Notes: a model not told the origin generated them from the sequence alone. Counted from the stretch's first letter, positions 1,079 to 15,906 are shown. The stretch: 64,000 nucleotides of DNA from Rhodospirillales bacterium (GCA_019634165.1 JAHQVT010000005.1:120308-184307), one strand, 5' to 3'. Numbers and translations: made by a program.

Positions 1079-1954
1079 ATGGAACCAAAAATGAACGCAT
1101 CAAAAAATGCGGCCCGTTCCGTTGATACCCGTTCGAACGAAATTTCGCAGATCACGCCATTGGCGTTGCGCAAATCAATTCGACGCGGCGAACACACAGG
1201 AACGACGACCGGTTTTTCATCAGGGTATCTTCAGGGGAACCTTGCGATTTTGCCCGCAGACTATGCGGACGAGTTTCTGCAGTTTTGTGCAAAGAACCCC
1301 AAATCATGCCCGTTGATTGGCATGTCTGAACCGGGGAACCCGCATATACCGGAACTTGGTGCTGATCTTGATATTCGAACAGACCTTCCGGGCTATCGCA
1401 TTTTTCGTGGCAGTAAAGATTTCACCAGCGCCAGCGATGTCAGCGATGTCTGGCGCGATGATCTGGTAACGTTCGTTTTGGGATGTTCATTTTCATTCGA
1501 AGCAGCGATTACGCGCGGCGGTGTTCAGTTACGCCATATGGATGCGAACCGCAATGTCCCGATGTATGTGACAAATATCGAAACCACACCGGCTGGGCGT
1601 TTCCATGGTCTGCTGGTGGTGTCGATGCGATCTTTTGCGCCTGGCGATGCGATCCGGGCGATCTTGTATTCCGACAGATATCGTCTGGCCCATGGTGCAC
1701 CGGTTCATATCGGTGACCCATTGCAGATCGGTATTGCGGATATTATGAAACCGGATTTTGGCGATGAGCCCGTCATTCATGAGGGGGACATCCCGGTTTT
1801 CTGGGCGTGTGGAGTCACGCCACAAATGGCAATTCGCAATGTATTGCCGGAATTTGCCATTACCCACGAACCGGGCTTGATGCTTGTAACCGATGTTCTT
1901 GCAGAAGCCGCGGAGTTCTCCCTTCAGACGAAACCTGAACAACATCAAACATAA
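1079..1954 (+). CDS. Putative hydro-lyase, DUF1445 / D-glutamate cyclase-like (YcsI-type) family
   Basis: Motifs RRGEHTGTTTGFSSGYLQGNLAILP, FVLGCSFSFEAA, NVPMYVTNI, HGAPVHIGDP, PVFWACGVTPQ typical of DUF1445. Confidence 0.85.
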   Translation: MEPKMNASKNAARSVDTRSNEISQITPLALRKSIRRGEHTGTTTGFSSGYLQGNLAILPADYADEFLQFCAKNPKSCPLIGMSEPGNPHIPELGADLDIRTDLPGYRIFRGSKDFTSASDVSDVWRDDLVTFVLGCSFSFEAAITRGGVQLRHMDANRNVPMYVTNIETTPAGRFHGLLVVSMRSFAPGDAIRAILYSDRYRLAHGAPVHIGDPLQIGIADIMKPDFGDEPVIHEGDIPVFWACGVTPQMAIRNVLPEFAITHEPGLMLVTDVLAEAAEFSLQTKPEQHQT

Positions 1955-1979
1955 ACAACTTATCAGAGAGGACATTGTT

Positions 1980-3032
1980 ATGAAAAAGATGGTTTCTTCG
2001 CTTTTGGCGGTATCTGCACTTGGTGCTGGTTTTGCAGCCAGCCCTGCATTCGCCGAGGAGCTTTCGGTTGTCGGTAGCTGGAGCAGCTTGCCGCTTTATA
2101 AACAATATGAAAGCCCGTTCTGGACCGAGACTGTGCCAGCGGATTCCAATGGTGACATCACCGTTCAGATGACCACCCATGATCAGATGGGTATTGGCGG
2201 CGGCGACGTTTTCCGTTTGCTGAGCGACGGCGTATTTGACGTTGCCATGACGGTTGGCGATTACGCAGTTGGTGATGCGCCGGAACTTGAAGGCCTTGAC
2301 GTGCCGTTGGTCGCAAACACCGCAGCCGAAGCCCAAGCCATGGTCGAAGCAGCACGCCCGATGGTCGATGACATCTTTGAAGCACGTTTCAATTCCAAGG
2401 TTCTTGCCATTGCCCCATATCCGCCGCAGGTGGTTTTCTGCGCTGGTGAAGTTGGATCGCTTGCCGATCTTAAAGGCAAGAAAGTCCGTGGTTCCGGCCG
2501 TATGACGACCAAATTCCTTGAAGCACTGGGTGCGACGGGTGTGAATGTGGCGTTTTCCGAAGTTCCCGGCGCGCTTGAACGTGGTGTGATTGATTGTGCC
2601 GTTACCGGTGCCGGTTCTGGATACAGTGCTGGTTGGTGGGAAGTTTCCGATCATTTGATGACCATTCCGCTGGGCGGCTGGGATCCGGTTGTAACCGCGA
2701 TGAACCTTGATAAATGGAATGGTTTGTCAGCCGATACTCAGAAATTTATCACTGATGAAATCACGTCTAAATTCGAAGCTCCGGCATGGGCATCGGCTGC
2801 AGATGCGTTGAAAAACGATGTTGCTTGCCTGACCGGCAATGGTACTTGCCCGGCAGGTGATCCGGCGAATATGACGCTGGTTGATGTTTCGGATGCAGAT
2901 TTTGCACAGGCAAAAGCCATCCTGACGGAAACTGTTCTGCCGGAATGGGCAGAACGTGCTGGTAATGATTGGGTTGCACGCTGGAACGATAGCGTTGGCA
3001 AAACGGTCGGTGTTACCGTACCGCTGAAGTAA
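1980..3032 (+). CDS. TRAP transporter substrate-binding protein (DctP family)
   Basis: Signal peptide MKKMVSSLLAVSALGAGFAASPAFAEE; DctP-like body; followed by DctQ and DctM genes. Start trimmed from the 1893 ORF. Confidence 0.88.
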   Translation: MKKMVSSLLAVSALGAGFAASPAFAEELSVVGSWSSLPLYKQYESPFWTETVPADSNGDITVQMTTHDQMGIGGGDVFRLLSDGVFDVAMTVGDYAVGDAPELEGLDVPLVANTAAEAQAMVEAARPMVDDIFEARFNSKVLAIAPYPPQVVFCAGEVGSLADLKGKKVRGSGRMTTKFLEALGATGVNVAFSEVPGALERGVIDCAVTGAGSGYSAGWWEVSDHLMTIPLGGWDPVVTAMNLDKWNGLSADTQKFITDEITSKFEAPAWASAADALKNDVACLTGNGTCPAGDPANMTLVDVSDADFAQAKAILTETVLPEWAERAGNDWVARWNDSVGKTVGVTVPLK

Positions 3033-3062
3033 GTTTCAGCAATTGGCGGAGAGGCCGGAAAA

Positions 3063-3611
3063 GTGACCCATAGAATGCTTGCGGCCATCCGCCGCACAAA
3101 CCGCTTTATCGCGTTGCTCGTCGGACTTGTTCTGACGGGCACCGTGATCCTGATTATTGCAGAAATTTTGTTGCGCGAAGTCGGCATATCGCTTGGTGGT
3201 GCCGAAGAAATTTCTGGATACGTCATGGCAGGTGTTGCCAGTTGGGGGATGTCATATGCCCTGACCGAACTTGCCCATGTTCGTATTGATTTGATCCGAT
3301 TGCGTTTAGAAAGGCGCGGTCGGGCTATGCTTGATCTGATTGCGATTGTTGCCCTTGCCGGTGTGGCATCCCTTGTTGCGTTTCAATGCTGGCCGGTTCT
3401 TGAAAAAACCCTTGAACGGGGGTCGCGGGCCAATACGGTGCTTGAAACCCCGCTTTGGATTCCGCAGACGATTTGGCTTTCGGGTTGGATCTGGTTTGCC
3501 GTGTCATCCTGCCTTCTTGTGATTTTGACATTGGTTTTGTTGATGCGTCGTGACTTTGATCAGGCCGATGCCCTTGTCGGTGCGCGCTCCGAAGTGGAGC
3601 TTGAATTATGA
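3063..3611 (+). CDS. TRAP transporter small permease (DctQ family)
   Basis: Four-TM small protein between DctP and DctM; GTG start. Confidence 0.88.
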   Translation: MTHRMLAAIRRTNRFIALLVGLVLTGTVILIIAEILLREVGISLGGAEEISGYVMAGVASWGMSYALTELAHVRIDLIRLRLERRGRAMLDLIAIVALAGVASLVAFQCWPVLEKTLERGSRANTVLETPLWIPQTIWLSGWIWFAVSSCLLVILTLVLLMRRDFDQADALVGARSEVELEL

Positions 3612-4888
3612 TTTTTGCTGTAACAGCGTCACTTCTTGGGTTTCTGGCCTTATCCATCCCGGTTGGAATTGTTTTGTTCCTGCTGGGGATCGGGGTTGAT
3701 CAGTTCTTTACACCATTCCCGCTTTTGCGTGGCCTTGGTCAGGTGGTTTGGTCTTCATCAAATTCATCGACCCTGATTGCCATTCCGTTTTTTGTCCTGC
3801 TGGGTGAAATCCTTGTGCGCGGTGGGATTGCCGAGAAAACCTATGAAGCATTGGATAAATGGTTTTCGTGGCTTCCGGGTGGTTTGATCCACGCCAATAT
3901 CGGAACGGCGACGATGTTTTCGGCAACATCAGGATCGTCTGTTGCCACGGCAGCGACCGTTGCAACGGTGGCAATGCCGCAGGCCGAAAAGCTTGGCTAT
4001 GATCCAAAACTGTTTTCCGGGGCGATTGCCGCAGGCGGAACCCTTGGCATTATGATCCCACCGTCGATCAATCTGATTGTCTATGGGTTCCTGACCGAAA
4101 CATCGATACCGCGTCTGTTCTTGGCCGGGTTGGTGCCGGGGCTTTTGATGGCGCTTGTCTTTATGTTGGTGACGGTTGTTCTGTGTAAGATCAAACCATC
4201 GCTTGGCGGGCAAAGCCGGTCCTTTAGCTGGTCAGAACGAATAACGAGCCTTCGCCATCTGATCCCGATCCTGATCCTGTTTTTTGCGGTGATCGGTTCG
4301 ATTTATGCCGGCTGGGCAACGCCAACAGAATCTGCGGCCATCGGGGTTGCGATTGCCATGCTTATCGCGGCCTTTAACCGGGGTGTTTCCAACGACATGG
4401 TTAAGATGTGTCTGCTTGGAACAGTTCGGATTACCGCGATGATCATGTTGGTGATTATCGGGGCATATTTCCTGAACTTTACCCTGACCGCAGCAGGCAT
4501 GGGCCGTGAACTTAAAGACCTTTTGACCGGTCTTAATTTCAGTCCGATGGGCACCCTTTTGGTTGTGATCGCACTTTATATCGTGCTGGGTTTCTTCATC
4601 GAAACCTTGTCCCTGATGGTTGCGACCATTCCGATCATTGTGCCGATCATGACCGGCATGGGTTTTGATAAGGTCTGGTTTGGCATTCTTCTGATCGTTT
4701 TGATCGAGATGGCGCTGATTACGCCACCGGTTGGCTTGAACCTTTATGTCGTGCAGGGGGCTCGAAAGTCCGGGCGGCTTTCCGAAGTCATGCTGGGCAC
4801 GATCCCGTTCGTACTGGTGATGGCGGCGATGATTGTCGGTCTGATTTTCCTGCCGGAATTGGCACTTTTCCTGCCCGATTATCTTTAG
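3608..4888 (+). CDS. TRAP transporter large permease (DctM family)
   Basis: FSATSGSSVATAATVATVAMP, GGTLGIMIPPSINLIVYG, TPPVGLNLYVV motifs; 4-nt overlap with DctQ. Confidence 0.93.
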   Translation: MIFAVTASLLGFLALSIPVGIVLFLLGIGVDQFFTPFPLLRGLGQVVWSSSNSSTLIAIPFFVLLGEILVRGGIAEKTYEALDKWFSWLPGGLIHANIGTATMFSATSGSSVATAATVATVAMPQAEKLGYDPKLFSGAIAAGGTLGIMIPPSINLIVYGFLTETSIPRLFLAGLVPGLLMALVFMLVTVVLCKIKPSLGGQSRSFSWSERITSLRHLIPILILFFAVIGSIYAGWATPTESAAIGVAIAMLIAAFNRGVSNDMVKMCLLGTVRITAMIMLVIIGAYFLNFTLTAAGMGRELKDLLTGLNFSPMGTLLVVIALYIVLGFFIETLSLMVATIPIIVPIMTGMGFDKVWFGILLIVLIEMALITPPVGLNLYVVQGARKSGRLSEVMLGTIPFVLVMAAMIVGLIFLPELALFLPDYL

Positions 4889-5012
4889 GACCTAAGTGGT
4901 TTCTTTGATGACACCAATTGGCTGACGGGCCGGGGTATTTCCCGGTCCGGGCCCCTTTATGATGCCGCGCAACAGCACGGCAGCACAGAAATCCAAAAAG
5001 TGAGATCGAAAT

Positions 5013-5696
5013 ATGTTGATGAAATTCACCCTTGCGGGCTCAGAAATTGATTTTGACATTGTCCATTGTACGGTTGCCGGTTGGACCGGCCGCGATGCCA
5101 GTGCCATTCAGCACCATATTGATGAACTGGCAGCGATCGGCGTGAAGCCGCCATCAACTGTGCCGCTTTATTACCGGACCGCATCGGGCATGGTGACCCA
5201 GCAAGATGTGATTGAAGTGGTCGGTACCGGCACATCGGGCGAGATTGAGCCATTTCTGATTGCAAAGGATGGCACGCTTTATCTTGGTCTGGCATCAGAC
5301 CATACCGACCGCGAACTTGAAGCCCATTCGGTCGCACTTTCCAAACAGATTTGCGAGAAACCTGTCGCGTCGGAAATCTGGCGGTTTGACGAGGTTAAAG
5401 ACCATATTGAACAGATCGAAATGCGGTCATGGGTTCAAGAAAAAGACGGTGATGACTGGGTGCTTTATCAAGAAGGATTGATTGCATCCATTCGGCCTTT
5501 GAGCGACCTGATCGAAGGTTCTGGACTTATGAGCACGGCGGGCAAAGGCAAGGCATCGGTGATGCTGTGTGGTACCCTTGGGGCAAAGGGCGGTGTGCGT
5601 CCGGCACGTCGTTTCAAAATGGCATTGCATGACCCGGTGCTTGATCGCACCATTGAGTGCGCCTATGACATTAATGAACTGCCCGAAATCGCCTAG
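5013..5696 (+). CDS. DUF2848 family protein
   Basis: N-terminus MKFTLAGSEIDFDIVHCTVAGWTGRDASAIQHHIDELAAIGVKPPSTVPLYYR recalled as DUF2848; co-oriented with TRAP genes and amidase. Confidence 0.8.
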   Translation: MLMKFTLAGSEIDFDIVHCTVAGWTGRDASAIQHHIDELAAIGVKPPSTVPLYYRTASGMVTQQDVIEVVGTGTSGEIEPFLIAKDGTLYLGLASDHTDRELEAHSVALSKQICEKPVASEIWRFDEVKDHIEQIEMRSWVQEKDGDDWVLYQEGLIASIRPLSDLIEGSGLMSTAGKGKASVMLCGTLGAKGGVRPARRFKMALHDPVLDRTIECAYDINELPEIA

Positions 5697-7760: not shown

Positions 7761-9839
7761 CTAGTTCTTTGATTTTTGATGGGCGGAAACCACGGCATCG
7801 GCTTGTTTTCCGCCAAGTTCCTGCATGTGGGAATAGCTTCTGGTGAAAAAGCCGGTTCCTTGGGTTAGCGAACGCAATTCGGTGACCATATCAGCCGTTT
7901 CAGATGTCGGCATTTGGACGTCGATTTCGTCCCAACCTTGCCAGCCATCTTTGGCATTAAAGCCAAGGATTTGTCCGCGCCGTGTACTGACAAGGCGCTG
8001 GGCCTTGGATGTGAAATCAGACGGGATCGAGATGGTGCATTTATCCACCGGTTCTAACAAAACCGGTCCTGCGACCTTTAAGGCCTCGCCAATGGCAATA
8101 CGCCCGGCCATCTGGAATGCCTGATCGGAACTATCAACTGCGTGAAAGGAACCATCGACCAGCTTGACCGCAACATCCACGACGGGAAAGCCAAGTGAAC
8201 CGGACCGCAAGCCATCACGGACCCCTTTTTCCACAGCCGAGATATATTGCCGGGGGATCGCACCGCCCACAATATGTTCGCTAAATTCAAAGCCATCCCC
8301 GCGAGCGAGCGGACGCAGTTCAATCGCGGCATCGCCAAATTGTCCGTGACCGCCGGTTTGCTTTTTATAGCGCCCGCGTGCCGATACGGGTTTTCGGATG
8401 GTTTCAAGATAGCCGGTTAGAACCGGTGTTGGGGTTATTTCAAGGTGATAATGTTCGGCCAAATGGGCCATGGCGCATTGCAGATGAATATCGCCCTGAC
8501 CCGCTAGGACAAGCTGCCCTGTACTCGCGTGATGGCCAAAGGAAATGGATCGGTCCTGTTCGCAAAGATGGCGTAATGCTTCGGTCAGTTTAACGTCGTC
8601 TCCGGGTTTTGTGACCGCAAGCCCGGTTTCATAAAGCGGTGGCAGGGGATCGGGCCACAAAGTTTCCATTTCCCCATCGCTGCTGACCAATGATCCGGTC
8701 CGAAGTTTTTCCATTCTTGGCAAACCGACGATGGCACCGGTGGTACCAAGATCAAGTTTCTCATGCTTATCGGCATAGAGGGTACAAAGCCCGGAAACCT
8801 TATCTGTGCCAAGCGCGTCGCCGTTTTTGATCTGCCCCGATAAAATGCGGGCAAAACAAAACCGCCCAGCATGTGAAAGATGGGCGGTTTTAAAAATCTG
8901 CAGAACGGTTTGGGCTGGGTCTGGATCAATGCCCAGACGATGTGCGCAAACATCCGATGATGGGGCTTCGTGGCGTAGTGCCTTTAGCAATCGAATGATG
9001 CCATGATCATGTTCGCCCGACCCAAAGAACACTGGAACAATAAGGTCATTGGCCAGATCACGTTCAAGATTTTCATAGATGGTTTCAGTCGCAGGGTTTT
9101 GGTCTTCGAGAATTTGTTCAAGCAACCTGTCGTCAAAATCAGCCAGTGCTTCAAGCAATCCTTCGCGGGTTTGGCTTTCGCGAGTTGCAACGGTTGAAGG
9201 CATTGCGATCAGTTTGGAGGGTTGTCCTTCGAGATACTGATAGGTACGTTCTGACACGATATCGACAAAGCCGGTGATGGGTTCATCTGGGGAATTCATA
9301 TCGCGGATTGGAATTTCGCGGATCACCAAGGGGCGTTCCGAGATGGATTGAAGGGCATCAAAACTGTCTTGCAGACGGAAACTGGTATGGTCGGTTTTAT
9401 TGATGAAAATCAGATGTGGTATCCGGTTGCGATCAAGAAACTTCAATGTCGGGGCAACCGTCATCACCCGACTTGGGTCGGGCTCAACGACAACAATGGC
9501 AACATCGCAAATCATGGCGGCTTCGCGCGCATCTTGGGCAAAATCGACAGAGCCCGGACAATCAATGAAATGCCATTCTTCACCAAGATAGGTGGTTTGG
9601 GCACAGGTAAGTTCGGTGCTCATTTCACGGGATCGGGATTCTGCATTGTAATCGCCAACGGTGTTGTGATCACGGATGGATCCTTTGCGGTGGATGCGCC
9701 CGGTTGCGGCAAGCAGGCTTTCAAGCAGTGATGTCTTACCGCTTGAATAAGGGCCGATCAGGGCGGCAACGCGCGGTGGGTGCGCTGGGGATGTGGTTGG
9801 TTGGGGTGATGTCGAACTGGCACTGCTGGGCATTGGCAT
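7761..9839 (-). CDS. Elongation factor G-like GTPase
   Basis: P-loop GPYSSGKTSLLESLLA, RSREMSTELTCAQTTY, DCPGSVDF, NKTD; EF-G domain IV/V organisation but divergent P-loop. Confidence 0.9.
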   Translation of the reverse strand: MPMPSSASSTSPQPTTSPAHPPRVAALIGPYSSGKTSLLESLLAATGRIHRKGSIRDHNTVGDYNAESRSREMSTELTCAQTTYLGEEWHFIDCPGSVDFAQDAREAAMICDVAIVVVEPDPSRVMTVAPTLKFLDRNRIPHLIFINKTDHTSFRLQDSFDALQSISERPLVIREIPIRDMNSPDEPITGFVDIVSERTYQYLEGQPSKLIAMPSTVATRESQTREGLLEALADFDDRLLEQILEDQNPATETIYENLERDLANDLIVPVFFGSGEHDHGIIRLLKALRHEAPSSDVCAHRLGIDPDPAQTVLQIFKTAHLSHAGRFCFARILSGQIKNGDALGTDKVSGLCTLYADKHEKLDLGTTGAIVGLPRMEKLRTGSLVSSDGEMETLWPDPLPPLYETGLAVTKPGDDVKLTEALRHLCEQDRSISFGHHASTGQLVLAGQGDIHLQCAMAHLAEHYHLEITPTPVLTGYLETIRKPVSARGRYKKQTGGHGQFGDAAIELRPLARGDGFEFSEHIVGGAIPRQYISAVEKGVRDGLRSGSLGFPVVDVAVKLVDGSFHAVDSSDQAFQMAGRIAIGEALKVAGPVLLEPVDKCTISIPSDFTSKAQRLVSTRRGQILGFNAKDGWQGWDEIDVQMPTSETADMVTELRSLTQGTGFFTRSYSHMQELGGKQADAVVSAHQKSKN

Positions 9840-10249
9840 CTCCTTGATCAGGAAGACCGATATCCCACGAAGCTTGTGATAAGCTTATCAGCGGCTCCAT
9901 GTGTTGCTGTCGCGAACAGCAGCCGGTCTGAACGTTTCAAATGCCCGGTTTTGTCCGGGTTGTATTTCTATGATGGGGTTTTAAGCAAAATCAGTGTGCA
10001 GTGTATTGTGCACTTCGTGCAATGGCTTTGCGCCTTGTCGGGCGGTTTGTACATGCTTTAAATCGGCCATTCGATCTTGTATCGGCCTTGTATTGCTTGG
10101 CATACCCCTCAATAGATCATGGTTAATGCATGTTATATCAAGGGGTTGGTTCGACTGTGCCCTTATTTGACCACAATTCGCCCCGAAATCGCCTAATGCA
10201 GCCTGTTTTCCTGCCTTGTTTATCAGGCAAATTCATAACTGTCAGCCGA

Positions 10250-10399
10250 GGACGCGGTCAGCAAAATTTGTCCCCCCTCACGACGCTAGACCGGCTTTTT
10301 CAGGGTGTTCCCCCTCCTGAAATGCCACGGCTGACTCGGTCTCCCCAAGACCATAATGACCCCGAATAGTTGGGGCGGGTTTATCCCGCCCCTTTTTTT
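10250..10399 (+). ncRNA. Predicted structured small RNA 1 (C-rich loops, intrinsic terminator)
   Basis: Enclosing stem GTCAGC(10257-10262)/GCTGAC(10330-10335); hairpin TTTCAGG-GTGTTCCCCCT-CCTGAAA (10298-10322); hairpin GGTCT-CCCCA-AGACC (10338-10352); terminator GGGGCGGG-TTTAT-CCCGCCCC-T7 (10372-10399). 5' end not defined. Confidence 0.6.
10372..10399 (+). terminator. Intrinsic terminator of predicted sRNA 1
   Basis: 8-bp perfect GC stem followed by seven T. Confidence 0.85.
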
Positions 10400-10503
10400 G
10401 TCCGGTTTTGGTATTTGGTGCGGGCGCCCTAATTGCCCCAATTCGCCCCCAAATGGTCATGAAACACCGATTTTTGAGCCCCATTTCAACGGCATATTCC
10501 TTT

Positions 10504-10682
10504 TTGTCGGATGCGCAAACATCGATGCTGTGCCCTCCCTCACAACGCATCGAGGCCCGCTTAGGATGCTCTCTCCCCGAAGTGTCCTTTACCCCAACGG
10601 GCAAGGCACCGCATCCGATCGGTCTCCCCAAGACCATCTGTCCCCAAAGCCCGGGCGAGCATTATGCTCCCCGGGCTTTTAA
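10504..10682 (+). ncRNA. Predicted structured small RNA 2, paralogue of sRNA 1
   Basis: Enclosing stem TCGGATGCG(10507-10515)/CGCATCCGA(10610-10618); hairpin CGATGC-T-GTG-CCCTCCCT-CAC-AAC-GCATCG (10523-10552); hairpin GGTCT-CCCCA-AGACC (10621-10635), shared 19-mer TCGGTCTCCCCAAGACCAT with sRNA 1; terminator 10646-10680. Confidence 0.6.
10646..10680 (+). terminator. Intrinsic terminator of predicted sRNA 2
   Basis: AAAGCCCGGG-c-GAGCAT-T-ATGCTC-CCCGGGCTTTT long hairpin with one bulged C. Confidence 0.85.
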
Positions 10683-10793
10683 TTTCTGTATCTGGTGTGA
10701 AATATGATTTTGCTTGCCGTATTAGGCAGAGAGGCAGAGGGAGAAGTGCAGGAGTAGCGCAGCGGTGATTGGAGTGCGGCCTTTGGCGCGCGA

Positions 10794-12179
10794 TCAGCGG
10801 GCAACCTGATCTGGGGCTTGGACCGAGTTCTTTTCGGACAAAGCAATCGGAGCGATGCTAAGCACCTGGGTTGGTGTTTCTCGTCCGCGCACGGTTACGT
10901 CACCACGCGGAGTCCACGCCGGGATGTCGGCGTGATCGCCGCAGGATTGCACGGTTTCTTCGGTCGCAAGAATATAGCTGCCATATTGCTTGTTAAGTGT
11001 TTCAAGCCGTGCGGCAATATTGACGTTATCGCCATGGACGGTGAAGGTCAGGCGGTTTTCGGACCCAATCGCGCCAATCACGATTTCACCGCTATTGATG
11101 CCGCATCGGGTTTTAAGCTTACCGCCAAAGCTGTAGACGCGTGTTTGGGAAATTTCCTGAATGGCCAATGCTGTGCGGATGGCATTCAAAGCATGTTCTG
11201 AAACCGGCGTGACAGCGTTGAAGGTTATCAGCATGGCATCGCCTTCGAACTGGGTGATGACGCCCCCAAATCGGGTAATCACCGCATTGGTTTCGGTGAA
11301 ATACTCATTAAGCATCGTTGCCAGTTCTTTTGGGCTGAGTTTTTCAGAGACCGTTGAAAAACCTTCAATGTCAGTGAACATCACAGTTGCCACAACCGCT
11401 TCACCATCACCGGGCTTGATTTGGTGTTCGGCATGGGTGATGCGATCGGCAATTTCCGGTGAGACAAATCGTGATAAATCACGGGCGGCGATTTCATCAC
11501 TGACCGCGCGGATAAACGATCGTTTGGCGCGCATAACGGCAATGGCCAGCACAAGCGATACCAAGACAATGGCAATGATCTTGTCGATCTCGGCCCCGAT
11601 CAGAATCGAGTTCGATGTGAGATAGGTGACGTAGTCACGCGTGATCATGCTTTTGCCGCCCTCGCTCCAGAGAACGTAGCCTGTAAGGGCGATCCAGCCG
11701 ACAGCGGCGGTGCCACCGGCAATCAGGATATAGCGCGGATCAAACCGCAAACTGCGCAATGAAATGAAGATGAAGACATAAAGCACCGTCGGTGCTTTGA
11801 GATAGAAACTTGCCGGTTGCATATACTGGATATGGAAACTCCAGATCAGGACCATCAAAAGCCCAATATCGGCAATAACCGATAGGGTGAGAAACCTGCT
11901 GGTCAAGGCATTGCGATAGGCAAGGGCAAGTCGTTTTAGCGTGAACAGATAATACAGACCAAGCGCCCAAGGGACTGGATGGATGCCGTCACTCATCGAG
12001 GTTTTTGGCGCAATGGCATATAGGCTGGCAAAGATCGTCACCAATAAAAGCTGAACCCAGCCAATAAGCTTTTCGCTTTCGTCCTGTTGTTTCTTGATGG
12101 CGGACTGCACCCGTTCTGGAAGACGGGTTTTGGTGTCTTTGCCAAACAGGAATGCGCCAAGTGTGCTTCTCATTGCCAA
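10794..12179 (-). CDS. Membrane-bound class III adenylate/guanylate cyclase
   Basis: N-terminal multi-TM region, C-terminal VMFTDIEGFSTVSEKLSPKELATMLNEYFTETNAVITRFGGVITQFEGDAMLITF and GDNVNIAARLE cyclase motifs. Confidence 0.92.
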   Translation of the reverse strand: MAMRSTLGAFLFGKDTKTRLPERVQSAIKKQQDESEKLIGWVQLLLVTIFASLYAIAPKTSMSDGIHPVPWALGLYYLFTLKRLALAYRNALTSRFLTLSVIADIGLLMVLIWSFHIQYMQPASFYLKAPTVLYVFIFISLRSLRFDPRYILIAGGTAAVGWIALTGYVLWSEGGKSMITRDYVTYLTSNSILIGAEIDKIIAIVLVSLVLAIAVMRAKRSFIRAVSDEIAARDLSRFVSPEIADRITHAEHQIKPGDGEAVVATVMFTDIEGFSTVSEKLSPKELATMLNEYFTETNAVITRFGGVITQFEGDAMLITFNAVTPVSEHALNAIRTALAIQEISQTRVYSFGGKLKTRCGINSGEIVIGAIGSENRLTFTVHGDNVNIAARLETLNKQYGSYILATEETVQSCGDHADIPAWTPRGDVTVRGRETPTQVLSIAPIALSEKNSVQAPDQVAR

Positions 12180-12342
12180 CCGCTCCTGATTGCGATCATC
12201 GGGCCGTGCCCGGTTGCGTCATTGGGGCCATAGTGAAAGGTTGCCGTCCCCTTGCCAAGTAAGCAGGTGATGACGTTTGATCACGCTTGCGTGCTAAGGC
12301 TTTGTGCTGAGGCGTGGATGTTGGGACAGGGATGAAAAAGGC

Positions 12343-12373
12343 AAAAAAAAGCCGGGCAACAAATGTGCCCGGC
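12343..12373 (-). terminator. Intrinsic terminator of predicted sRNA 3
   Basis: GCCGGGCA-CATTTGT-TGCCCGGC followed by TTTTTTTT on - strand. Confidence 0.85.
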
Positions 12374-12530
12374 AAGTTTATCAGGGAGGCTTCACGTCTG
12401 GGAGACGTAGGACCCTTCGCAGGGCCCTGGGTAAGCCGGACAGGGCGTCCGGCTAAGACCGAAATTCGGTCAGGGAGAAAACTCTGTACCGCGCTGCGAC
12501 GTGTGTCGCTGCGGTTCGAGAGAGAAGATA
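12343..12530 (-). ncRNA. Predicted structured small RNA 3 (minus strand), or structured leader of the cyclase gene
   Basis: On - strand: hairpins GCGAC-ACAC-GTCGC, GACCGAATTTCGGTC, AGCCGGAC-GCCCT-GTCCGGCT, AGGGCCCT-GCGA-AGGGTCCT, ACGTCT-CCC-AGACGT, linker CCTCCC, terminator GCCGGGCA...TGCCCGGC-T8. 5' end not defined. Confidence 0.55.
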
Positions 12531-12709
12531 GCGTTTTTGACGGGAAAGACCACTGCCAAATTGCTTTTTCAGCCATGCAAAATATGCATAAATGTTTGGT
12601 AGTTCGTTTTTTCTATTTAACCTATTGAAAATAAACAAAATTATTGAGGATTATGAGCTGAGTACGGCAAAGAGCGCGTAAAACAGCAGCAATTTTTTTG
12701 CAGGAGCAC

Positions 12710-12744
12710 AAAAAAATGCCGGTAGCAGGGGGGGCGCTACCGGC
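12710..12744 (-). terminator. Intrinsic terminator of predicted sRNA 4
   Basis: 9-bp perfect stem GCCGGTAGC/GCTACCGGC then T-run on - strand. Confidence 0.85.
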
Positions 12745-12850
12745 ACAATTCAACAGGGAGGTTTACGTCTGGGAGACGCAAGGAATCTTGGGGGAGATTC
12801 CAGTGCCGGATAACGTTCCGACGGACGGATCATGCGGAGATCAGCGAAGA
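12710..12850 (-). ncRNA. Predicted structured small RNA 4 (minus strand), paralogue of sRNA 3
   Basis: On - strand: GGAATCT-CCCCCA-AGATTCC, CGTCT-CCC-AGACG, CCTCCC linker, terminator GCCGGTAGC-GCCCCCCCT-GCTACCGGC-A-T7; CGTCTCCCAGACGT(g)AA(g)CCTCCCTG block shared with sRNA 3. 5' end not defined. Confidence 0.55.
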
Positions 12851-13269
12851 TTGGAGCGATTTCGCTTTTGCGTCTGCTCACAACCTATGATGCAAATATA
12901 GGTTGGGTTATATTACATTTGAAGTATAAAAACTTCAGACCAACCATGCGTCAGATGCATGGCAGAAAAATGGCAGTAATTTTAAGTAATTATGACCAGC
13001 CCCGCGTCAAACGCACTTCGTTGGTTGCTAAAAATCCTTGTTCGAAGGTCTTAGGTAAGCGTTTTTGCATGAACCCTAGGGTTAAAATCACGCGCAGATT
13101 GTTATGAACCCTTTCTTGCGCGCAACATTGTTGCAATTTTTAAGAGATACTTTTGTAAAGTTCTGTCGCTAAAGAGGTTTTTGGACGCTGTGAGTGGGGA
13201 CGGCGGCCAAGGGTTTAGATGTGTGGTTTTAGGCGCGCGAATATCGCAAAGTTTGGAAAGTCCTGAAAC

Positions 13270-13324: not shown

Positions 13325-14269
13325 TTATTTGTCGCTGGCAGCTTTGGCCGCAGCGGCCTTTACCTTGACCTTGGTGATTTCTTCGATCAGGAAGTCACGG
13401 AAAACGGCAATACGTTTGGAATGACGCAATTCTTCGGGATAAACGAAGTAGGCATCAAAGCTTGGCCCTTCGAGTTCCGGCAGGATGCGCACCAGATTAC
13501 TATCAGCCGGAACCAAATAGTCCGGCAGCGCAGAAATCCCCAAACCAGATTCTGTCGCACGGAAAATACCATAGATATTATTCAGTTTCAGAATCGGGCG
13601 CATATCGGGTTTGAACTGCTGGGCTGTGGCCATCATCCAGTTGACGTTCGATACCGGTGGGCGTGCATCCGCACCATAAATGATCAGGCGGTGGTCTTTA
13701 AGTTCTTCTGGTGTTTTAGGCATGCCGTACTGTTTGATATATTCCGGCGCTGCAAACACGTGATAGCGCAATGTCATTAATTGGCGCTGAACCAGATCGG
13801 CCTGACGTGGCGGTTGCATACGGATTGCAACATCGGCTTCGCGCATGGCAAGGTCGAGTTCCTCGTCATTGAGAACCAGCGACAATTCGATTTCCGGGTA
13901 GCGTTCAAGGAATTCATTGATGCGCGGGGTCAACCAGGTTGAACCAAAGGCCACCGTGGTCGTAACCTTAAGCGGGCCACTTGGGCGTTCCTTGGATTCG
14001 CGAATACGGGCCTCGGCCATCGACAATTTGGCGAAAACGTCGTGGGCTGTGCGATATAACAACTCGCCCTGTTCGGTCAGGATAAGGCCACGGGCATGAC
14101 GATGGAACAGCGGAACCTTCACACTTTCTTCAAGTGCGCTGATCTGCCGGCTTACGGCCGACTGGCTCAGATTAAGGTTTTCCCCCGCATGGGTGAAGCT
14201 TCCAGCTTCTGCAACAGCGTGAAAAACACGCAGCTTGTCCCAATCCATAGACCTGCTCCTAGATGTCAC
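13325..14269 (-). CDS. LysR family transcriptional regulator
   Basis: MDWDKLRVFHAVAEAGSFTHAGENLNLSQSAVSRQISALEESVKVPLFHRHARGLILTEQGE HTH. Confidence 0.93.
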   Translation of the reverse strand: MTSRSRSMDWDKLRVFHAVAEAGSFTHAGENLNLSQSAVSRQISALEESVKVPLFHRHARGLILTEQGELLYRTAHDVFAKLSMAEARIRESKERPSGPLKVTTTVAFGSTWLTPRINEFLERYPEIELSLVLNDEELDLAMREADVAIRMQPPRQADLVQRQLMTLRYHVFAAPEYIKQYGMPKTPEELKDHRLIIYGADARPPVSNVNWMMATAQQFKPDMRPILKLNNIYGIFRATESGLGISALPDYLVPADSNLVRILPELEGPSFDAYFVYPEELRHSKRIAVFRDFLIEEITKVKVKAAAAKAASDK

Positions 14270-14609: not shown

Positions 14610-15560
14610 TCAGTCTTCTTGTTCAGCAATGAACTTTTCTGCTTCAAGGGCAGCCATGCAGCCCATGCCAGCAGCAGTTACAGCCTGACGATAGATTTTG
14701 TCTGTTACGTCACCTGCTGCAAAGACACCTTTAATATTGGTGACCGTGCTGCCGGGGTTTACCAGAACGTAGTTTTCGTCATCCATCTCGACCTGACCTT
14801 TGAAGATGGCGGTTGCCGGATCGTGACCGATCGCAACAAAGAAACCATCTGCCGGAATGTCGGTAACTTCATCGGTTTTGATGTTGCGCACACGCACGGC
14901 TTCAACGCCGTCCATCGGGCCATCGCCGCCAAGAATGTCGTCAACTACGCTGTCCCAAACAACATCGATCTTTTCGTGTTTTAGCAAACGTTCCTGCAGC
15001 ATTTTTTCTGCGCGAAGTTCATCACGGCGATGGATCAAGGTGACTTTCGAGCAAATACCCGCAAGATAAAGAGCTTCTTCAACCGCGGTATTCCCGCCGC
15101 CAACAACCGTCACCGGTTTGTTGCGATAGAAAAAGCCATCACAGGTCGCACATGCCGAAACGCCGCGGCCATTGAATTTTTCTTCGCCCGGAAGGCCAAG
15201 CCAGCGGGCCTGCGCACCGGTTGAGATGATAACGGTTTGCGCAATATAGGTGTCGCCAGAATCGCCTTTGCAGACGAACGGACGTTTGGAGAAATCGACC
15301 TCGGTAATCAGATCATGGACCATTTTGGTGCCGACATGCTCGGCCTGTGCTTTCATCTGATCCATCAGCCACGGACCCTGAACGACATCGGCAAAGCCCG
15401 GATAGTTTTCGACATCGGTTGTGATCGTCAACTGACCGCCCGGCTGCAGACCCATCACCATCATGGGTTCAAGATTGGCGCGTGCCGCATAAATTGCTGC
15501 AGTGTATCCAGCAGGGCCGGAGCCGATGATAAGGACTTTGGTCTGATGTTCCTGGGCCAT
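14610..15560 (-). CDS. trxB: Thioredoxin-disulfide reductase
   Basis: IIGSGPAGYTAAIYAARANLEP, CATCDGFFYRNKPVTVVGGGNTAVEEALYL, VFAAGDVTDKIYRQAVTAAGMGCMAALEAEKF; start trimmed to MAQEHQTK. Confidence 0.95.
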   Translation of the reverse strand: MAQEHQTKVLIIGSGPAGYTAAIYAARANLEPMMVMGLQPGGQLTITTDVENYPGFADVVQGPWLMDQMKAQAEHVGTKMVHDLITEVDFSKRPFVCKGDSGDTYIAQTVIISTGAQARWLGLPGEEKFNGRGVSACATCDGFFYRNKPVTVVGGGNTAVEEALYLAGICSKVTLIHRRDELRAEKMLQERLLKHEKIDVVWDSVVDDILGGDGPMDGVEAVRVRNIKTDEVTDIPADGFFVAIGHDPATAIFKGQVEMDDENYVLVNPGSTVTNIKGVFAAGDVTDKIYRQAVTAAGMGCMAALEAEKFIAEQED

Positions 15561-15906
15561 GTTCTTTGAGTTCGTCCGAGCTAAATGAAAAACTGCGCTC
15601 GAACATATGGGCTGATCGGGCAAGACGCAACCGCTTCACGCAAAGTTTGCAGGCCTTTTTGCCGTTTTGGGGAGCATGATTTTCTGCTGTTGAGGTGCTT
15701 GGTTTGCCCGAAGCTTTGCAAACAGGGTTCAAGTCGCTGAACAGAAGGGGAGAAAACCGCACAAAAAGCGGATTTTACAGCATTTTCAGTTACGGCATCC
15801 AAGCACAAGATTGCATTCTTGATTGGATTATATTATTGCCAGCAACTTGCCTCGCTGTAATATTGTTTCAAACGGGGTAACTTTCGCGCACAGAATCGAG
15901 GAATAA

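Follow-up and report, generated by a model that had tools for sequence, protein, structure and literature searches.

A 64,000-nt stretch of DNA from a Rhodospirillales bacterium (GCA_019634165.1, JAHQVT010000005.1:120308-184307; here called the window) raises the question of why four structured, C-rich loci, numbered 1 to 4, surround a single class III adenylate/guanylate cyclase gene. A sequence-only reading had proposed one coordinated cluster of small RNAs (sRNAs) that mask Shine-Dalgarno (SD) sites and might be tied to cyclic-nucleotide signaling. Our analysis indicates two families instead, and the meaningful neighbor is the gene pair trxB-lsrB. We consider it likely that loci 4 and 3 are AbcR-like siblings, controlled by the LysR-type regulator LsrB and covering SD sites, and that loci 1 and 2 form a separate anti-SD family of Thalassospira. 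AbcR sRNAs are virulence and symbiosis regulators of Rhizobiales. The host of the window is assigned here to marine Thalassospira, and its LysR protein is 96 to 97% identical to the counterparts of T. australica and T. profundimaris.

Four conserved RNA loci in two groups

On the minus strand, the order of the features is trxB, the LysR gene, locus 4, locus 3, and the cyclase gene, and loci 1 and 2 lie on the plus strand past the cyclase gene (Table 1). The four C-rich loci proved to be structured where they had been placed: their minimum free energies gave z-scores of -4.1 to -6.7 against dinucleotide shuffles, and 0 of 200 shuffles were equally stable. All four are kept across Thalassospira with compensatory base changes, few of them in locus 1. 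In the genus alignments, two-sided changes were observed in 13 base pairs of locus 2, 8 of locus 3 (mean column identity, 92%), and 9 of locus 4, and in only 3 of locus 1. The C-rich loops and linkers (CUCCC, CCUCCCUG, and GGUCUCCCCAAGACC) are almost invariant in these alignments, and the anti-SD motifs described earlier, complementary to GGGAG/GGAGG, are real. Overall, the sequences indicate that loci 1 to 4 are conserved RNA genes, in two groups (4 and 3; 1 and 2), in agreement with the proposal of multicopy sRNA genes with anti-SD C-rich loops.

Two details required adjustment. A strong intrinsic terminator had been attributed to every locus, and the terminator scan returned strong hairpins with T tails at loci 1, 3, and 4; for locus 2 the description is slightly overstated, because its strong GC hairpin is followed by a weaker tail (UUUUAAUUU). 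Likewise, the small hairpin reads directly as described, GGTCT-CCCCA-AGACC in loci 1 and 2 and CGTCT-CCC-AGACG in loci 3 and 4, but these are two related versions rather than one shared element, and homology between the two pairs is weakly supported. Open reading frames spanning loci 3 and 4 were rejected as spurious, because the homologues carry 1- to 3-nt indels and base-pair covariation.

Table 1. Features around the four RNA loci, in window coordinates
Feature	Position	Strand	Details
Promoter region of locus 1, common to locus 2 and array copies	10197..10239	+	TTTTCCTGCC ... GGCAtATTC
Locus 1 sRNA (predicted)	10240..10399	+	Closing stem GUCAGCCG/CGGCUGAC, C-rich loops, GGUCUCCCCAAGACC hairpin, terminator; fold z -4.1; genus alignment
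Locus 2 sRNA (predicted)	10506..10683	+	Closing stem GUCGGAUGCG/CGCAUCCGAU, C-rich loops, GGUCUCCCCAAGACC hairpin, UGUCCCC, terminator-like hairpin; fold z -6.7
Class III adenylate/guanylate cyclase gene	10797..12179	-	PF00211, E 6.9e-24
Locus 3 sRNA (predicted), ~176 nt	12344..12519	-	Several hairpins, anti-SD motifs UCUCCC and CCUCCCUG, terminator; fold z -6.3
Inferred -10 of locus 3, CTATCT	12526..12531	-	Inferred start ~12519
17-bp dyad TATGC-N7-GCATG, putative LsrB operator of locus 3	12574..12590	-	Box 12/13: GCATGGCTGAAAA
Locus 4 sRNA (predicted), ~179 nt	12711..12889	-	Hairpins, GGAAUCUCCCCCAAGAUUCC, ACGUCU-CCC-AGACGU-type hairpin, CCUCCCUG linker, terminator; fold z -5.8
Inferred -10 of locus 4, CTATAT	12896..12901	-	Inferred start ~12889; kept in genus
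17-bp dyad CATGC-N7-GCATG, putative LsrB operator of locus 4	12945..12961	-	Exact VtlR box GCAT-N3-TG-N3-T at 12949-12937
lsrB/vtlR-type LysR regulator gene (HTH_1 + LysR_substrate)	13328..14269	-	Pfam; homologue searches
trxB, thioredoxin reductase, upstream of lsrB	14610..15623	-	Pfam pyridine nucleotide-disulphide oxidoreductase

A module linked to lsrB across the class

A covariance model, R1, was built from the 3' module of loci 3 and 4, which consists of the hairpin ACGUCU-CCC-AGACGU, CCUCCCUG, and the terminator. In the R1 alignment (A2), 97.4% of the cells were paired and 17 were doubly changed, against 4.6 after shuffling. The model scored 76.7 bits on locus 4 (12781-12711) and 80.9 bits on locus 3 (12410-12344), and it matched all 29 Thalassospira genomes searched and 140 of 296 genomes of the class Alphaproteobacteria. 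Outside Thalassospira, matches were found in 24 of 29 class lsrB loci (L056-L084), mostly just 3' of lsrB. Among 80 named lsrB loci, 59, from many alphaproteobacterial families, have the module 3' of lsrB and in the same orientation, including Kiloniella, Azospirillum, Reyranella, Nisaea, Pelagibius, Elioraea, and Acetobacteraceae; 21 gave no match, 3 of which end too early to judge, leaving 18 with room for the module. The neighborhood is kept as well: trxB has a homologue in 69 of the 80 loci, and nearly all matching class genomes hold a single strong homologue of the LysR protein, mostly at 49 to 73% identity (57 to 71% in the named loci outside Thalassospira).

Conserved structure in homologues, which the sequence-only reading had called for, was found by building and searching such models and by the compensatory changes. 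Since some covariation in the Thalassospira locus 3 terminator reflects replacement by an inserted element and not independent mutation, we used class-wide counts. In 60 distinct module sequences from the named loci, pairing reached 97.2%, with 164 doubly changed cells compared with 45.5 after shuffling, and the covariation score was 0.513 compared with 0.135 for shuffled and at most 0.098 for slid controls. By sequence, loci 3 and 4 fall within a widespread and old group of predicted lsrB-linked sRNAs, which spans the class and matches no Rfam model at threshold.

Several observations concern the dynamics of these loci. Two small genomes of the class (G281 and G291; 1.6 to 1.8 Mb) contain the R1 module 6 to 7 times, partly as tandem copies. 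In two genomes (L014 from G008 and L015 from G003), locus 4 ends in the 3' module of locus 3 instead of its own, as gene conversion between siblings would produce. In three others (L197 from G010, at 1087-5160; L203 from G004; L204 from G021), an element of 4 to 6 kb has integrated into the 3' end of locus 3; this end is now present twice in nearly identical form, and the predicted sRNA has acquired another terminator. The element carries a phage-type tyrosine integrase (Arm-DNA-bind_3, Phage_integrase; Pfam, L197 only).

A putative LsrB operator

The dyad YATGC-N7-GCATR was found about 120 to 195 nt before the R1 module in 42 of 57 lsrB loci, compared with a mean of 0.25 in mononucleotide shuffles and 3 of 55 downstream regions. 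The entire window holds just two such dyads, one before locus 3 and one before locus 4. A -10-like hexamer follows the dyad, mostly by about 42 nt, in 17 of the 42 cases (5.2 in shuffles). Measured from a start that rests on the inferred -10, the box of locus 4 (GCATGGTTGGTCT) lies at about -60 to -48; the box of Sinorhizobium meliloti abcR1 is at -61 to -49 (PMC8844928). Taken by itself, the VtlR box GCAT-N3-TG-N3-T shows no significant excess in the window (16 occurrences, with 14.4 expected); the operator argument is carried by the dyad and its position.

These elements also bear on whether loci 3 and 4 might be 3' untranslated region (UTR) or terminator elements, with locus 4 mainly the end of the lsrB transcript and any functional RNA arising by processing. 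The usual distance of the module, only about 220 nt past lsrB in most genera, would suit such an origin, and SorX, which is processed by RNase E from a 3' UTR, provides a precedent. However, the dyad is conserved and has a -10-like element about 42 nt after it, conservation is strong 5' of the terminators, and Thalassospira has two full copies, situated about 0.5 and 0.9 kb beyond lsrB and both preceded by a separate dyad. We regard a 3' UTR origin as improbable, and favor sibling sRNA genes with promoters of their own.

Predicted targets of loci 3 and 4

CCUCCCU pairs perfectly with AGGGAGG, and the window's own genome contains 36 AGGGAGG-N3-10-ATG sites, compared with 6 for the reversed control; with the extra C, 14 CAGGGAGG-N3-10-ATG sites were found, compared with 2. 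Solute-binding proteins of the families DctP, SBP_bac_1, SBP_bac_5, and Peripla_BP_4 account for 10 of the 23 AGGGAGG genes examined, against about 4 of 49 window genes (Fisher p ~1e-3). The predicted duplexes with the linkers have energies of about -15 to -22 kcal/mol. Given this complementarity, the excess of SD sites, the solute-binding enrichment, and the duplexes, the most likely mode of action is a translation block at the ribosome-binding site, and RNAs of the locus 3/4 type probably switch off nutrient-uptake genes.

Relation to known sRNA families

The family had not been recognized from sequence, and the Rfam covariance search agrees: at gathering scores, the window yielded only a tRNA, and none of loci 1 to 4 matched. 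The closest parallel in layout is AbcR1/AbcR2 (alpha-r15, RF02345) of Rhizobiales. VtlR/LsrB has been described with a trxB neighbor and a tandem AbcR location (PMC7486931), and loci 3 and 4 are likewise tandem siblings 3' of trxB-lsrB/vtlR. As in AbcR, an LsrB/VtlR box is placed at about -60 (exact at locus 4, 12 of 13 positions at locus 3, each with an inferred -10), one anti-SD motif lies in a hairpin loop and another in a linker, and the targets, in our case predicted, are transporter solute-binding proteins. In contrast to S. meliloti, where abcR2 is RpoH1 dependent (PMC8844928), both loci 3 and 4 have the box. Because AbcR1 synteny is stated to span alphaproteobacteria (PMC8844928), part of the lsrB-sRNA synteny is already known. 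The arrangement, which had been called unusual, is largely the rhizobial trxB-lsrB-abcR layout (PMC7486931, PMC8844928), found here in a different bacterial order and with another sRNA sequence. Our literature search found no paper joining AbcR, Rhodospirillales, and sRNA, which is not proof of novelty.

Among the 18 R1-negative loci with room, at least two show AbcR-type sequence after lsrB: that of Stappia (L191) carries CCUCCUCCC and UUCCCCUC, and that of Pleomorphomonas (L192) scores 35.8 bits with the AbcR (ar15) model. Therefore, the same place appears to hold AbcR in these genomes and the R1 form elsewhere. Elsewhere in 31 relatives, ar15 gave weak matches only; the two loci examined (G000:C6 and G016:C2) are tRNA-gene clusters in which the matches overlap or adjoin tRNA genes, and AbcR was rejected there. 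An ar15 search of the 296 class genomes gave no match, but its control matched nothing either, and the search is uninformative.

In terms of the module itself, loci 3 and 4 resemble SorX (RF02784, Rhodobacter), with its hairpin, ACCUCCCUGUUG, and terminator, and alpha-r8/MmgR/SisA-D (RF00519), which is multicopy in some species. They might then be divergent members of either family located beside lsrB, regulating through CCUCCCU outside an LsrB circuit. The order of the parts, hairpin, CCUCCCU, and terminator, is identical; the SorX model gave the best Rfam resemblance, 35.4 bits on locus 4 (E 4.5e-6), with 26.3 bits for the second match, and reached 44.1 bits among the other copies beside lsrB, and the suhB/MmgR model gave 28.7 bits on locus 3 and 26.1 bits. 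The alpha-r8 core that follows a weak hairpin is the 10-mer UUUCCUCCCU (PMC12559287); loci 3 and 4 have its CCUCCCU, preceded by GAAG or AAA instead of UUU. Nevertheless, every score is below gathering (46.6 and 41, respectively). SorX derives from the ompR-1 3' UTR, and alpha-r8 normally lies by an FGase gene, with no LsrB dyad in the parts of the literature consulted, whereas loci 3 and 4 have a dyad and a link to lsrB that are kept across families. Moreover, the genome has a separate weak suhB match on contig C14. We therefore judge membership in alpha-r8 or SorX unlikely. The region on C14 (L208, G000:C14:69900-71000) shows weak suhB/alpha-r8, BjrC1505, and SorX matches at about 428-590 on the plus strand and is possibly the alpha-r8 RNA of this genome. 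CcsR1-4/cuckoo RNAs and alpha-r14 (NfeR1) are also clustered siblings with anti-SD C-rich loops, like loci 1 to 4, which lack the CCUCCUCCC loops that define CcsR/cuckoo RNAs and give no Rfam match to them.

Loci 1 and 2 and the cyclase gene

Loci 1 and 2, together with their array copies, have a common extended promoter, TTTTCCTGCC ... GGGCATATTC, in which no dyad was seen. A search for the exact pattern, the locus 1/2 hairpin followed by CCCC, found no other genus among 395 class genomes. In the exact-hairpin search, tandem copies numbered at least 6 in L195, 5 in L196, 4 in L197, and 2 in L198, and such copies occur in Thalassospira species without a good full-length match to loci 1 and 2. 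The sequences indicate a second anti-SD family, specific to Thalassospira, with a different promoter and multiplied into arrays of at least 4 to 6 copies in three species. Its predicted targets are unconvincing: the search gave four TTGGGGAGA-N2-10-ATG sites, of which one precedes an ATP-binding cassette (ABC) permease gene.

A single cluster tied to cyclic-nucleotide signaling would draw on the GUCUCCC/AGAC hairpin common to the loci, on the position of all four around the cyclase gene in this genome, and on a weak R1 match to locus 1 (19.4 bits, E 0.0019; no match on locus 2). Against it, the two pairs have different promoters, loci 1 and 2 were not found outside the genus, and a cyclase gene is near lsrB in only 1 of the 80 named loci, a Thalassospira, and is absent from lsrB loci outside that genus; in T. 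profundimaris, the locus analyzed extends about 2.4 kb beyond the second module and contains no cyclase gene up to that point. We find this scenario highly improbable and the signaling link unsupported; the cyclase is probably a Thalassospira-specific neighbor and a bystander. Further along the window, at 7761-9839 on the minus strand, an elongation factor G-like GTPase gene lies near a Dps/ferritin-like gene.

Discussion

In the circuit that we propose, LsrB/VtlR would activate transcription of loci 4 and 3 by binding the dyads, which lie about 60 bp before the inferred starts. The resulting RNAs would expose unpaired CCUCCCU and UCUCCC and, presumably with the use of Hfq, pair through them with the SD sites (GGGAGG) of target mRNAs. 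Many of the targets would encode periplasmic solute-binding proteins that serve ABC and tripartite ATP-independent periplasmic (TRAP) transporters. Pairing at the SD would block translation, an action like that of AbcR1/AbcR2, which repress ABC-transporter mRNAs through Hfq.

Several points weigh against this proposal. The AbcR motifs are aSD1 CUCCUCCC in the 5' hairpin loop and aSD2 UUCCCCUC in the linker, whereas loci 3 and 4 have UCUCCC and CCUCCCU, and the ar15/AbcR model gave no match on the region, loci 3 and 4 included, up to an E value of 5; because of this unmatched model and the different motifs, we do not file them as AbcR. The dyad is a putative LsrB operator only by analogy to the published VtlR box. 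The background for the solute-binding enrichment, drawn from this window, is small; the target class is less clear elsewhere (about 5 of 18 in other genomes, by Pfam and N termini), and AGGGAGG may stand at solute-binding genes for sRNA-independent reasons. Finally, in the one published small-RNA sequencing study found for Thalassospira (PMC6413936), none of the 43 sequences searched from the 86-entry miRDeep2 table falls in loci 1 to 4, the search leaving out the rest of the table and the CID-miRNA list. The same study contains a T. australica small RNA (2252 reads) that maps antisense about 100 nt past lsrB (L115, 4524, minus strand).

More tentatively, and with somewhat more doubt than confidence, lsrB might keep an adjacent anti-SD sRNA throughout the class in two unrelated-looking forms, AbcR in Rhizobiales and R1 elsewhere, as an ancestral nutrient-uptake switch whose RNA was exchanged for another or diverged too far to be recognized; in Thalassospira, a second anti-SD family restricted to the genus would then be expanding beside it.

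If an sRNA of the same kind accompanies lsrB in Rhodospirillales, Azospirillum, Acetobacteraceae, Reyranella, and Kiloniella, the circuit would be much older and of wider generality, and the class-wide role of LsrB would become testable in free-living bacteria. R1 is a ready covariance model for a family without Rfam recognition at threshold, the 17-bp dyad is a concrete candidate operator, and the Thalassospira arrays offer a natural case of sRNA copy-number expansion.

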